Source: Clostridiales bacterium (GTDB lineage: Bacteria; Bacillota; Clostridia; Christensenellales; Borkfalkiaceae). Taken from it: a stretch of DNA of 38,085 nt. Shown here piece by piece: positions 30,171-34,085 of the stretch. Positions within the stretch are counted from its first letter, which is position 1. Every line of letters begins with the position of its first letter. The stretch spans positions 1-38,085 of the forward strand of contig SVIJ01000011.1 of the NCBI GenBank assembly GCA_015069565.1, written 5' to 3'. The notes under the pieces are model-generated. The model saw only the letters and a list, made by a program, of their open reading frames with translations, made no database searches and was not told where the DNA came from. The position numbers and the translations under genes were made by a program.

Positions 30171-30902
30171 TCAATCGTGTCGATCGTCGGAATGGAAGAT
30201 TTCGCAAAATCTTGCCGACGAAGACGGCTCTTCACCGCCTGCATACAAATGGCTGACGTCCCCAAAGCCGCAACAACGGAATACCGCCGTGCCTTCCCTG
30301 CGCTCTTCGGTATAGAGCGTCGTCACCGACGTGGGCAACGCCACGAAATGATGCCAAAGCGGAATGGGAGAAATGCCGCATAAATGCGAAAGCAATACCA
30401 TTTCCAACCCAAAGTGGCAAAAGAGCACGATCGTTTCCGTATGCCCCTGTTCTGTGCGGTAAACGTTGCCGTCACGCTTATAGCCGTGGGAAGCCAAAAG
30501 CTCGTCCAAACCGTCCGTCACCTTGCGGTATCGCTGTTCCATACCGCCCTTGACGTAATAATCCTGCTGATACCAGCGATCCTTATCGTACATTTGCGCA
30601 TCGTCAATCCATTCCGCAGGAAGCATATCCCAAGGAATATCGCGAAGCCGCCCCGAAGGGAGCGTGCAGGTACAGCCAAACTCTTTCAGCCAGTCCTTGA
30701 TTACCACTTCCGACTGTTTGCCATGCGCTTTCGCCACGTAATCGCAGGTATGCCTTGCCCTGCCAAGCGGTGAAGAATAGAAATGATCGATCTTTTCCTT
30801 CGAAAGCTTTGCGGCAAGCAACGCCGCTTCGCGGTGTCCTTTTTCCGTCAAGGTATCGTGCTCATAATCGGGATCGCCGTGACGAACGATCAAAATTCTC
30901 AT
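30171..30902 (-). CDS. Histidine phosphatase superfamily protein (phosphoglycerate mutase-like)
   Basis: The 243-aa protein begins MRILIVRHGDPDYEHDTLTE with the RHG catalytic motif (His8), followed by YSSPLGRARHT with the phosphate-binding Arg, and a later LFCHFGLEMVL with the second catalytic His. These are the hallmarks of branch 1 histidine phosphatases, which remove phosphate from small metabolites or proteins. The ATG overlaps the hemW stop by 4 nt (ATGA). The substrate cannot be deduced; the family spans mutases, phosphatases and cobalamin or sugar phosphatases. Confidence 0.9.
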   Translation of the reverse strand: MRILIVRHGDPDYEHDTLTEKGHREAALLAAKLSKEKIDHFYSSPLGRARHTCDYVAKAHGKQSEVVIKDWLKEFGCTCTLPSGRLRDIPWDMLPAEWIDDAQMYDKDRWYQQDYYVKGGMEQRYRKVTDGLDELLASHGYKRDGNVYRTEQGHTETIVLFCHFGLEMVLLSHLCGISPIPLWHHFVALPTSVTTLYTEERREGTAVFRCCGFGDVSHLYAGGEEPSSSARFCEIFHSDDRHD

Positions 30903-32020
30903 ACGTCTTTTTCCTCCAAGAAGGGCATCAAAACGGAATTTTGTACGTACAGGTATTCGTCCTTGATGCGAAGGCTATCGCCCACCAGCTCCAAATACGG
31001 CAGACTCTTTTGGAACGCCTTCGGGAAATCGTCCCCGACGTTCGTGCCGAATTGCTTTTTGTACTCCTTCAAGGAAACACCGTATTTTGTACGTAGTCCG
31101 AGCATAATAAACTCGAACTTCGCTTCGTCTTCCGTCACCTTTTCGCAGGTGACCGCAGGATAGAAGCCCGAAATGATACACTTCATGTATTCGTCCAAAT
31201 CGAAGGTATTGGTGAAGCGCTGCCCGAGCATAAACGAGCTTGCCGAAACGCCAAAGCCGATATATTCGCCCCGCTTCCAGTAGATGAGATTGTGACGACT
31301 TTCGTACCCTTCCATCGCAAAGTTGGAAACTTCGTAGCGGGTATATCCCTTCTCTTTAAGCAGGGAATAGCCGTAGGCGTAAAGCTCCGCTACTTCGTCG
31401 CTATCGGGCAGTTCGCCATTGAGATAATCGGTGTAGATCGGCGTGCCGTCTTCCACCGTCAACGCGTACATGGATATGTGTTTTGAGCCGCAAGCGTGCG
31501 CAAGCTCGATCGTTTTGCGGACGTCTTCCTTCGTTTGATTTTTCAGCCCCAGCATAACGTCCGTGCTGAAATTTTCCCCTTCCAAAAGCTTGGTGGCATA
31601 GACGTAGTCGCGTACGTTATGGATACGTCCAAGGTCTTCGAGCTGTTCGTCGATTGCCGTTTGTAAGCCGATGGAAAAGCGGTTGATTCCTGCTTCCTTA
31701 TACGTCTTGACCTTCGCTTCGCTGATCGTACCAGGGTTGAGTTCAAGCGTGATTTCCGCATCGTCCGCAAGCGTGAAGCAAGCGCGGATTTGTTTCATCG
31801 CGCCCGCAATCAGCTTCGGGGGAATATAGGAAGGCGTACCGCCACCGAAATAGACGGTGTCGAATACGTAGTTTTTCAGTTCTTCCCCACGCATTTTCAG
31901 TTCCTTATAAAGACAAGCCATATACGCTTCCGCGTAAGTGATCCTATCGGGAAAGGATACGAAATCGCAATAGGTGCATTTATGCCGACAAAAAGGCACG
32001 TGGATATAGATACCAGGCAT
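30899..32020 (-). CDS. hemW: HemW-type radical SAM heme chaperone
   Basis: The 373-aa protein starts MPGIYIHVPFCRHKCTYCDF, with the radical-SAM CxxxCxxC cysteines at 11, 15 and 18, then YFGGGTPSYI (SAM site) and ELNPGTISEAKVK, typical of HemW (formerly HemN-like oxygen-independent coproporphyrinogen oxidase homologue). HemW binds heme and delivers it to respiratory enzymes; it lacks the HemN extra N-terminal residues. I chose the ATG at 32020 because AGGAG lies 8 nt before it; the frame extends upstream into the hairpin element but that part is not protein-like. In many Bacillota hemW follows lepA, as here. Confidence 0.93.
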   Translation of the reverse strand: MPGIYIHVPFCRHKCTYCDFVSFPDRITYAEAYMACLYKELKMRGEELKNYVFDTVYFGGGTPSYIPPKLIAGAMKQIRACFTLADDAEITLELNPGTISEAKVKTYKEAGINRFSIGLQTAIDEQLEDLGRIHNVRDYVYATKLLEGENFSTDVMLGLKNQTKEDVRKTIELAHACGSKHISMYALTVEDGTPIYTDYLNGELPDSDEVAELYAYGYSLLKEKGYTRYEVSNFAMEGYESRHNLIYWKRGEYIGFGVSASSFMLGQRFTNTFDLDEYMKCIISGFYPAVTCEKVTEDEAKFEFIMLGLRTKYGVSLKEYKKQFGTNVGDDFPKAFQKSLPYLELVGDSLRIKDEYLYVQNSVLMPFLEEKDV

Positions 32021-32037
32021 ATGAGTACTCCTAAAAG

Positions 32038-32246
32038 AGTGAATTGATTTGCGTTGCAAATCGTGCATTGCGCCTAACGGCGCGTGAATTGACAGCTTCG
32101 CCGTCGTGAATTGCTTGCCTATCGGCAAGCGTTATGGAAATATTAAAATAATTCCGCAACGCAAGGCAATGCCTTGCATTTCACGTTTTCGCTAGAAAAG
32201 AATTCACGAAAACTCTGTTTTCAATTCACACCGCAGGCAATTCACT
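32038..32246. repeat. Branched palindromic element: hairpins joined by 9-nt linkers of mirrored orientation
   Basis: The 256-nt gap between lepA and hemW is nearly filled by one structure. In the left half the linker cgtgaattg (32038-32046, 32062-32070, 32083-32091, 32105-32113) alternates with short hairpins: ATTTGC/GCAAAT, CGCC/GGCG, ACaGC/GCcGT, CTTGCC/GGCAAG. A central AT-rich loop (32138-32152) is closed by CGTT..GGAA / TTCC..AACG. In the right half the linker appears as its reverse complement (catttcacg, gaattcacg, caattcaca, caattcact) between hairpins CAAGGC/GCCTTG, TTTTC/GAAAA, AAAAC/GTTTT and a tiny CC/GG. The outermost linkers, AGTGAATTG and CAATTCACT, are exact complements. The whole can fold into one stem bearing side hairpins. 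It shows no coding potential. Probably a mobile or RNA-level element. Confidence 0.8.
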
Positions 32247-32276
32247 GTATTGTATTGCGAAGTATATTCTTGACTT

Positions 32277-34085
32277 TTAATCTTTGTTGGTTTTAAGAAT
32301 TTCCATAAATACTTCGGACGGCACTTCTACGCTGCCCACTTGGCGCATACGCTTTTTGCCTTCCTTTTGCTTTTCAAGAAGCTTTCTTTTACGAGTGATG
32401 TCGCCGCCATAGCACTTCGCCAAGACGTCCTTGCGTACCGCCTTGACCGTTTCTCTTGCAATGATCTTACTGCCGATTGCCGCCTGTACGGGAATTTCAA
32501 ACAGCTGACGGGGAATCGCCCCCTTCAAGTTCTCGCAAAGCGTTCTACCGCGCTCGTAGGCGCTGCCTTCGAACACAATCGACGAGAGCGCGTCGCAAAT
32601 TTCGCCGTTCAGCAGGATATCCAAACGGACAAGCTTCGATTTTTGATAGCCTGCAAGCTCATAATCAAAGCTTGCATAGCCGCGCGTACGCGATTTCAAG
32701 CCGTCGAAGAAATCGTATACAATTTCGTTCAAGGGCAAGGTGTATTCCAGCTTAACGCGACGCTGATCAACGTAAGTCATGTTCTTGAACACGCCACGCT
32801 TTTCCTTGCAAAGATCCATCACCGCGCCCATATAATCGGACGGCGTGTAAATTTCTGCCTTGACAATCGGCTCTTCCATGTATTCGATATCCGAAGGATC
32901 GGGCAGATGCGACGGGTTGTCCACGTAGAACTCTTCCCCGTCCGTCTTGTGCACCAAATAGCTTACCGACGGCGCGGTGGTGATGATGTCGAGATTGAAC
33001 TCACGCTCAATCCGCTCTTGGATGATTTCCATATGCAAAAGCCCCAAGAAACCGCATCTAAAACCAAAGCCGAGCGCCACCGAGTTATCGGGCTCGAAAA
33101 TGAGCGACGCGTCGTTGAGTTGAAGCTTCAAAATCGCTTCCTTTAAGTCGTTAAACTTACTGCCGTCGAGCGGATAGATACCGCAAAAGACGACGGGTTG
33201 TACTTTTTTATAGCCAGGCAGGGGCTCTGCCGCAGGTCGCAACGCGTGCGTGACCGTATCCCCCACCGCTACGTCCTGAATGGATTTGATGGAAGCCGCA
33301 ATATACCCAACTTGCCCCGCTTCCAGCCTTTCCTTCGGGAACAGGTTGGGCGCGAACACACCCACTTCCGTCACGTCGTAGGTGGTATCCGAAAGGAAGG
33401 TGCGGATTTTATCCCCTACCTTCACTTCGCCGTCCTTGATGCGAACGAACAGGATAACCCCTTTATAGTTGTCGTAATAGCTATCGAAAATCAATGCCTT
33501 CAAGGGCGCTTCCGTGTCGCCGTCGGGGGCAGGAAAATAGGTGGTAATCGCTTCCAAAAGGTCTTCAATGTTCGTGCCTTCCTTTGCCGATACGCAGGGA
33601 ATCCCTTCCGCATCCAAGCCGATTACGTCTTCGATCTCCGCCTTCGCATCGTCGATACGAGCGCTGGGCAGGTCGATTTTATTGATAACGGGCAAGATTT
33701 CCAAGTTGTTTTCAAGCGCAAGATAGACGTTGGCAAGCGTTTGTGCTTCCACGCCCTGCGTTGCGTCCACAACCAAAATCGCACCTTCGCACGCCGCCAA
33801 GGAACGGCTGACTTCATAGGTAAAGTCGACGTGACCAGGGGTGTCAATCAGGTTGTATTCGTATTCCGTACCGTCCTTTGCGGTGTAGTACATTCTTACG
33901 GGCGTGAGCTTGATGGTAATGCCGCGTTCACGCTCGATGTCCATGCTGTCCAAAAGCTGTTCTTCCATATCGCGTTTGGATACCTGACCCGTCTTTTCAA
34001 TCAAACGATCGGCAAGCGTGCTCTTGCCGTGGTCGATGTGCGCGATAATGCAGAAATTGCGTATATTTTTATTAGGTTTCGCCAT
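32277..34085 (-). CDS. lepA: Elongation factor 4 (LepA)
   Basis: The 602-aa translational GTPase has the P-loop AHIDHGKST (15-23), switch I/II segments [10 protein letters not shown] and [11 protein letters not shown], and NKIDLPSA for guanine. The C-terminal part has the LepA-specific domain ([40 protein letters not shown]). Length is exactly as expected. It binds ribosomes and aids initiation/assembly or back-translocation under stress. The ribosome site (AAAGAGTG) is weak. It lies 43 nt after the LysR gene, and the branched element separates it from hemW. Confidence 0.97.

Follow-up and report, generated by a model that had tools for sequence, protein, structure and literature searches.

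A comb-like palindromic element between lepA and hemW, probably a short form of a mobile element encoding an IVP/S23 protein

The lepA-hemW Locus

The stretch of DNA under analysis (38,085 nucleotides, hereafter the window) harbors, between lepA and hemW, a comb-like palindromic element of 207 bases (Table 1). Direct reading of the sequence discloses 4+4 near-invariant linkers, with the heptamer core GTGAATT/AATTCAC, which alternate with eight small hairpins and surround a center of the type CGTTNNGG…CCNNAACG. The first-pass annotation, made from the window alone, had described a comb of hairpins and mirrored linkers at this place, and the comb is real, its ends lying at 32039 and 32245. Its outermost linkers are indeed exact complements, hairpin 3 has one mismatch and the last hairpin only two base pairs, as it had been claimed; the degenerate fifth linker pair described there corresponds to the two sides of the center, CGTTATGG and CCGCAACG. 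The centre of this copy, 32 nt long, does not contain a gene for an IVP (see below).

Table 1. Features of the comb and of the two adjoining genes (positions refer to the window).
Feature	Position	Strand	Basis
Whole comb, short form, no ORF	32039..32245	.	Direct reading, BLAST, parsing
Linker L1, GTGAATTG, exactly complementary to the outermost right linker	32039..32046	+	Direct reading
Hairpin 1, GATTTGC-GTT-GCAAATC, closing G-C common to linkers	32046..32062	+	Direct reading
Linker L2, GTGCATTG, 1 mismatch	32063..32070	+	Direct reading
Hairpin 2, GCGCC-TAAC-GGCGC	32070..32083	+	Direct reading
Linker L3, GTGAATTG	32084..32091	+	Direct reading
Hairpin 3, GACAGC-TTC-GCCGTC, one mismatch	32091..32105	+	Direct reading
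Linker L4, GTGAATTG	32106..32113	+	Direct reading
Hairpin 4, GCTTGCC-TATC-GGCAAGC	32113..32130	+	Direct reading
Center, CGTTATGG (32130-32137) ... CCGCAACG (32154-32161), 32 nt	32130..32161	.	Carries CGTTNNGG..CCNNAACG
Hairpin 5, GCAAGGC-AAT-GCCTTGC	32161..32177	+	Direct reading
Right linker, CATTTCAC, 1 mismatch	32177..32184	-	Direct reading
Hairpin 6, TTTTC-GCTA-GAAAA, non-pairing G/G at base	32185..32200	+	Direct reading
Right linker, GAATTCAC, 1 mismatch	32200..32207	-	Direct reading
Hairpin 7, GAAAAC-TCT-GTTTTC	32208..32222	+	Direct reading
Right linker, CAATTCAC	32222..32229	-	Direct reading
Hairpin 8, A-CC-GCA-GG-C, 2 bp only	32230..32238	+	Direct reading
Outermost right linker, CAATTCAC	32238..32245	-	Direct reading
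lepA, upstream gene, stop 31 nt from the comb	32277..34085	-	
hemW, ATG at 32020	30899..32020	-	Start read from sequence

An AGGAG Shine-Dalgarno sequence is located at 32027-32031, 7 nt beyond the end of the comb and in front of hemW. In the list of open reading frames, hemW starts at a TTG embedded in the comb (window 32020-32128); the ATG at 32020 is the likelier start, so that a longest-ORF call would add 36 false residues to the protein.

The region 32000-32290 folds at -94.7 kcal/mol, against -69.3 +/- 4.7 for shuffled sequences (z -5.4; none of 200 shuffles as low); hence, the comparison with shuffled sequence proposed by the first-pass annotation yielded a fold far better than expected from composition. 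The comb alone folds at z -7.6 (30 shuffles), and the median z is -6.6 over 17 of the 85 parsed elements described below. The scan of the window against Rfam 15, at gathering thresholds, gave no matches.

Copies, Layout and Distribution of the Combs

Further copies of the comb, whose search had also been suggested, are numerous. In the assembly of this gut bacterium itself (G000, 1.27 Mb, 82.8% complete), BLAST retrieved 74 matches, merged by eye into about 42 dispersed places; 40 of the 66 first-look candidates were scored. The whole element has BLAST matches in 16 out of 61 genomes (G000 and 60 relatives), and a pattern of three linkers is found in 17/57 genomes of the genus, the reversed control pattern in none of the 57. 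In a sample covering the whole order, arrays were detected in 5 of 396 genomes, i.e., G000 and four genomes belonging to two other families. No match to the window element was retrieved by BLASTN from plasmids and phages, and the two pattern matches found in viral contigs were discarded, both being simple repeats devoid of hairpins.

Most of the copies of G000 share, side by side, the layout aGTGAATTG-hp-CGTGAATTG-hp-CGTGAATTG-hp-CGTGAATTG-hp-CGTTNNGG…CCNNAACG-hp-CAATTCACG-hp-CAATTCACG-hp-CAATTCACG-hp-CAATTCACt (hp, hairpin). Parsing of the two-armed short copies, which left out the clusters lacking at least two linkers per side, gave 85 elements in seven genomes, 83 of which are 165-259 bp long; the exact 4+4 layout recurs in 38 of them. 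The center motif CGTTNNGG…CCNNAACG (at most one mismatch on each side) is present in 84 of the 85, versus three after shuffling, and the centers of these 84 span 23-70 nt, which leaves no room for a gene. Arrays of another linker class, GTGAAGTT, are found in nine genomes of the genus, and G000 has combs of this class (3+2 pattern matches).

Some peculiar loci deserve to be mentioned. One arm at L179 (G066:C40, 1755-1965) is made up of head-to-tail copies of a two-hairpin segment of 44 bp, which represents a possible route of arm growth. The flanks of the combs in L024 and L028 contain a TCATTCTGAGCG(A/G)AGCGATAG repeat that can be drawn as a tandem-G.A mini-hairpin and that may be related.

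Dispersal and Insertion Sites

The combs are dispersed, multi-copy elements. Two copies of G000 are 95% alike in the element and only 24-25% in the 60-nt flanks; in the same way, the 55 pairs formed by 11 copies have a median identity of 89% in the element versus 32-35% in the flanks. Some other near-identical pairs have flanks in common as well, with values reaching 92% on one side, from which it follows that segmental duplication also occurs. In the parsed copies, direct flank repeats of 2-10 nt are at chance level, i.e., no target-site duplication was recognized.

The inspection of empty sites in relatives, suggested by the first-pass annotation, did not disclose a precise one, the nearest genome being only 83% identical in lepA. 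Judging from match positions, no more than 30 nt separate lepA from hemW in 12 of the 30 readable relatives (31 entered), and in many others a short ORF, alkyltransferase-like by eye, is embedded between them. A GTGAATTG comb was found at none of 80 hemW loci. At L300 (G076:C50:14552-17845, approximately 1368-1950), in another species, an IVP-coding comb with ATGAATT linkers is located directly upstream of hemW; it sits behind a def-like gene instead of lepA (gene names by eye).

A second junction, fhs-glnS, was examined in 30 of the 57 genomes, five of which carry there an IVP-sized element with arms. In G071, G035, G036 and G033, the spacer contains scar-like remnants, for instance a single GTGAATTG or one hairpin plus CAATTCACG; the other spacers are only ~66-80 nt long, or longer and without these arms. 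The scars and the comb-free spacers suggest that the copies at this junction are dispensable. The loci concerned (L295, L291, L293, L294, L301 and L344-L373) are one and the same site, a record of either decay or repeated insertion. In the genome of the window itself, this spacer (L345, G000:C10) harbors a one-sided comb of the heptamer class GCGATAT.

The Hairpin Units: Free Sequence and Constrained Pairing

The hairpin units were cut between linkers of the same direction (at most one linker mismatch, gap of 6-22 nt, other gaps dropped), skipping locus L010, which is contained in L195. In the resulting 597 units from eight genomes, 95.6% of the stem pairs are Watson-Crick, against 36.7% in shuffled interiors (maximum of 50 shuffles, 39.3%), even though the perfect 5' arms are of 118 distinct sequences. 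In 526 linkers, accepted at no more than one mismatch, the core positions are 93-99.6% constant, and the bases flanking GTGAATT act as the closing pair of the hairpin (G-C in 556 and T-A in 17 of the 597 units). Unit length ranges from 8 to 21 nt. The building block of the arms can thus be regarded as an invariable heptamer accompanied by a hairpin, the sequence of which is free. An alignment of 14 related G000 copies revealed changes on both sides of the stem in 10 of 43 pairs, where 2.6 were expected (0/500 shuffles); when the structure was shifted by 1-3 columns as a control, 0-3 such pairs remained. The idea of the first-pass annotation that structure, rather than sequence, is selected is thus upheld by the pairing and covariation tests and by the polarity of the loops.

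Indeed, GNA and GNNA loops number 229 on the strand reading AATTCAC and 23 on the other one, a bias that persists when only distinct units (138 vs 12) or one unit per distinct arm (35 vs 5) are counted. The same holds for the GTGAAGTT class (17 vs 0), the 56 distinct units of which are 97% Watson-Crick paired versus 36% after shuffling. The commonest loop-closing pair is C-G (464/593), and the tandem G.A hairpin GAGC-loop-GCGA occurs 25 times on the AATTCAC-reading strand and never on the other. It is known that d(C-GNA-G) and d(C-GNNA-G) loops and sheared tandem G.A pairs form unusually stable DNA mini-hairpins. The polarity of the GNA/GNNA loops, the lack of a GNRA preference among the tetraloops (31 GNRA vs 57 GNYA) and the prevalence of 3-nt loops (392/597) are therefore taken as favoring single-stranded DNA, without amounting to proof.

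The strong RNA folding and the covariation of the stems would also fit structured RNAs, i.e., intercistronic or 5' leader elements that stabilize, process or regulate mRNA, and that were spread by transposition but kept for their RNA fold; some copies (window, L186, L190 and L234) even end just before a Shine-Dalgarno sequence. However, among the 67 copies with both neighbors of at least 100 codons, 23 lie between divergent genes, nine between convergent and 35 between co-directional ones, and the loop types, as well as the apparent dispensability of the fhs-glnS copies, speak against an RNA function. On the mRNA strand of co-directional copies, G.U pairs exceed A.C pairs by only seven to four, which speaks neither for RNA nor against it. 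This explanation appears unlikely; in particular, the mRNA role between lepA and hemW envisaged in the first-pass annotation is not general to the family, given the variety of gene orientations and the short distance between these two genes in 12 of the 30 readable relatives.

IVP-Coding Long Forms in the Genus

In G066, two arms enclose an ORF of 117 aa. Its product and that of the G028 gene match TIGR02436 (E 8e-31); moreover, the G028 protein matches PDB 2RLD (E 8.7e-31; E 9e-38 with a profile of seven IVPs). On the basis of these matches, the arm-enclosed ORF of G066 encodes an IVP/S23 four-helix-bundle protein. One IVP was tested against PHROGs and PADLOC, with no match. The existence of such long forms, and the heptamer rule outlined below, go beyond what the sequence of the window alone could reveal.

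Overall, PF05635 was found in 21 of the 57 genomes of the genus, at 28 loci. Six of these (L291, L293, L294, L295, L300 and L301) lie between arms of the GTGAATTG or ATGAATTG type, and two more (L305 and L311) between GTGAAGTT arms; at L296, the IVP ORF is placed between two separate combs rather than between the arms of a single one, and the center motif is absent. Some other IVP loci adjoin repeats of the heptamers ATGAAAT, GCGATAT or AATATAA. Repeated 8-mers flank 15 of the 28 IVP genes and none of 29 lepA genes, the other 13 IVPs being without them. At the borders of seven IVP ORFs, the center motif (at most one mismatch) is recognizable six times on the 5' side and four times on the 3' side; L295, which reads CCACAACG and was cut off in the slice scored, represents a fifth 3'-side case. 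Where the linker is ATGAATT, the border motif is CATT/AATG. The long forms, therefore, have the same kind of arms and center as the short copies, and the short ones would derive from a coding form with the same ends.

The linker class follows the phylogeny of the protein. In a tree of 27 of the 28 IVPs (one weak match was dropped), with 16 rows classed and 11 unclassed, the five linker classes require four changes, the minimum, against a mean of 8.5 for shuffled classes (0/200 as low); the TGAATTG group of seven IVPs, L296 included, forms a clade with weak support (52/57). The four genomes with a GTGAATTG-armed IVP all belong to the 17 array genomes (chance ~0.006), and each of them also has array matches away from the IVP locus; similarly, both genomes with a GTGAAGTT-armed IVP are among the nine with GTGAAGTT arrays. 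Arrays of the ATGAATTG class were detected in just three of the 57 genomes, in one of which the match is the arm of the IVP element itself; arrays being so few, short copies do not accompany the IVP in this class. At the level of whole genomes, the presence of IVP and that of arrays are uncorrelated (7/17 array genomes vs 21/57 overall). Ten of the array genomes gave no PF05635 match, among them G000 (82.8% complete) and G035 (93% complete), so that the dependence of the present copies on an IVP is only proposed. In G000 and G035, the IVP might have been lost, might be encoded in missing contigs, or the copies might have had another mover.

IVP Genes and Heptamer Arrays beyond the Genus

The search within the order embraced 21 genomes, with 17 from the family f16 besides the four that bear arrays. 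PF05635 was found in 15 of them, including all four array-bearing genomes, beside the IVPs of which no GTGAATTG arms were seen. Repeated 8-mers flank 23 of the 30 IVP loci of the order, again versus 0/29 lepA genes. Direct tandem heptamers are rare both in the order (3/30) and in the genus (3/28), where combs take their place.

Using one IVP as a query, tblastn retrieved 25 plasmid and two phage records. In named records (14 plasmids and one phage), 12 of the 15 IVPs whose surroundings were analyzed have exact repeats at lag 7 (at least five positions) in their flanks. These records total 509 positions at lag 7, against 0-6 at lags 4-6 and 8-13 and six in the control stretches, and the heptamer repeats are inverted in eight of the nine loci having both sides. 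As an example, IVP genes of Nostoc plasmids are located between (AATTCGC)n and (GCGAATT)n; several of the Nostoc loci (L440-L442) have common neighboring genes and are not independent. In a sample of the phylum, where 72 of 398 genomes were positive and 30 loci were taken, the pattern is less marked: after dropping L403, a run of N responsible for most of the background at other lags, lag-7 repeats were present at 13 of 29 loci and were inverted in 13 of 21. A hairpin-density test of the same sample gave nothing consistent, 18 of the 30 loci having been skipped because no ORF was found by motif.

The neighborhoods of some IVP genes are worth reporting. At L434, on a plasmid of Monoglobus pectinilyticus, a type I restriction system has the IVP gene between its hsdS and hsdR; at L438 (Anabaena cylindrica pANACY.01), the IVP gene is located between cas2 and cas1. 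At L388, L390, L391 and L393, from the phylum sample, arrays of the heptamer CAGGAGA or AGGAGTC lie beside the IVP genes; they are purine-rich and possibly overlap the ribosome-binding site.

Discussion

The window comb is probably the non-autonomous, shortened version of a palindromic mobile element that, in its long form, encodes an IVP/S23 protein between arms of the same kind. Among the three roles suggested in the first-pass annotation, that of a non-autonomous mobile element is the best supported; that of a protein-binding array may be partly right, the IVP being the candidate protein. The most likely scheme is the following. Each arm is a row of one heptamer (GTGAATT, mirrored as AATTCAC), spaced in this lineage by hairpins with free sequence but constrained pairing and loop type. 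In single-stranded DNA, which would be the active form, or in a transcript, the heptamers of the two arms might pair to give a rod, from which a hairpin would branch off at every junction. The arms would be recognized and bound by an IVP oligomer with specificity for their heptamer class. This oligomer might bring in some polymerase or nuclease, by which the element would be copied to other intergenic positions, no target-site duplication being produced; the copies lacking the ORF would ride on the IVP made elsewhere, acting in trans. The IVP/S23 proteins have been described, in the passages of PMC4990558 concerned, as having no known function, and thus the scheme accounts for no catalytic step.

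The absence of a target-site duplication and hairpins with single-strand loop polarity might also point to a REP/RAYT-like element moved by an IS200/IS605-type (Y1) transposase that reads single-strand hairpins, the IVP being a mere passenger; Y1 enzymes use such hairpins and leave no target-site duplication, and a weak match to a Y1 domain was found in G000. However, Y1_Tnp (PF01797) is present in 21 of the 57 genomes and was not found in the array-rich G035 and G028, the combs have no GTAG or CGTC tag, and the centers of the parsed short copies are too small for a gene, which makes this explanation very unlikely. Still less probable is a mutational by-product with no selected function, in which slippage would expand the arrays and template switching in the replication fork would keep the stems perfect. 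Quasi-palindrome correction is known in bacteria, the stems change wholesale and yet remain perfect, and the arm made of tandem 44-bp copies at L179 is in agreement with slippage; nevertheless, the near-invariant heptamer, the recurrent 4+4 layout and center, the dispersal to unrelated sites and the concordance with the IVP clades would all be left unexplained. Finally, a chromosome-organizing or decoy array, with a nucleoid protein on several hundred double-stranded GTGAATT sites, would fit the near-invariant heptamer and its many sites per genome, but it is highly improbable, as hairpin pairing is irrelevant in double-stranded DNA, the variable unit length gives no helical phase and the presence of the arrays is sporadic.

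The mobile-element interpretation can be extended, in a more tentative way, well beyond this lineage. The IVP/S23 proteins of Bacillota, Cyanobacteriota, Spirochaetota and Bacteroidota, together with those of the 23S rRNA IVSs, could all serve a single, undescribed class of mobile elements as sequence-specific recognition proteins; the arms of this class would be inverted heptanucleotide arrays, each IVP clade reading its own heptamer. In the order to which the window belongs, DNA mini-hairpins of free sequence would separate the heptamers, and short ORF-less copies, including that of the window and maybe part of the heptanucleotide repeats known from cyanobacteria, would be the non-autonomous progeny. 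Dozens of dispersed combs and their IVP-coding relatives offer a way to learn the role of the IVP: as the heptamers go with the IVP clades, a binding assay would be simple and would contain its own specificity controls. As an instance of selection, the comb is unusual, in that the fold of a single-stranded nucleic acid is selected while the sequence of the stems is hardly constrained. The link between IVP and heptamers may also give a cause for the heptanucleotide repeats that, in the passages cited, are reported as over-represented in bacteria (PMC4692102).

Comparison with Known Systems

Intervening sequences (IVSs) of the 23S rRNA gene are excised by RNase III. Those of, e.g., Leptospira and Coxiella are among the closest known systems; according to the passages of PMC4990558 concerned, they are elements bounded by inverted repeats, with an IVP/S23p gene in their interior, and have been termed selfish; an earlier theory regarded the IVS as a mobile element, its spread being a matter of hypotheses, and in the Coxiella IVS tandem heptameric repeats occur just upstream of S23p. 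In contrast, the window copy is located outside the rRNA genes and has no ORF, and the arms of its family combine heptamers with variable hairpins, occupy tens of places and include gene-less short forms. Diversity-generating retroelements are characterized by a reverse transcriptase together with template and variable repeats. PF05635 resembles their Avd protein, which is essential to retrohoming, as stated in the part of PMC10053308 concerned. Among the matches listed from open-access PMC, none tied IVP or four-helix-bundle genes to heptamer arrays or combs, and a search with the linker string and "palindromic" gave no such element among the matches listed.

MITEs are palindromic, non-autonomous, multi-copy forms of coding elements, produced by internal deletion. 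The combs resemble them in being multi-copy, short, delimited by terminal inverted repeats and devoid of an ORF (85 copies in seven genomes), and because a coding element with the same ends and a similar center motif exists (6/28 IVP loci); unlike MITEs, they lack a target-site duplication, have arms of heptamers and free hairpins, and their partner is not a transposase. A further likeness is that with the heptanucleotide repeats of Xanthomonas and Nostoc, known as STRR. These are intergenic tandem repeats of 7 nt, including an inverted pair, for which no hairpins between the heptamers are described in the passages concerned (PMC4692102).

Finally, in the REP/REPIN sequences with their RAYT, as portrayed in the relevant parts of PMC3733652 (see also PMC3116915), short palindromic intergenic repeats likewise coexist with a partner gene flanked by them. 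The combs differ from REP/REPIN in that they lack the GTAG/CGTC tag (the linker being CGTGAATTG), their stems are not family-specific, as the 118 distinct perfect arms indicate, each element has eight hairpins, and the partner is an IVP instead of a Y1 transposase, PF01797 not co-occurring consistently with the arrays. The combs would thus work like REP with RAYT, or like a MITE with its parent element, while relying on a partner protein that is unrelated and on arms of a new kind, as judged from the open-access literature.
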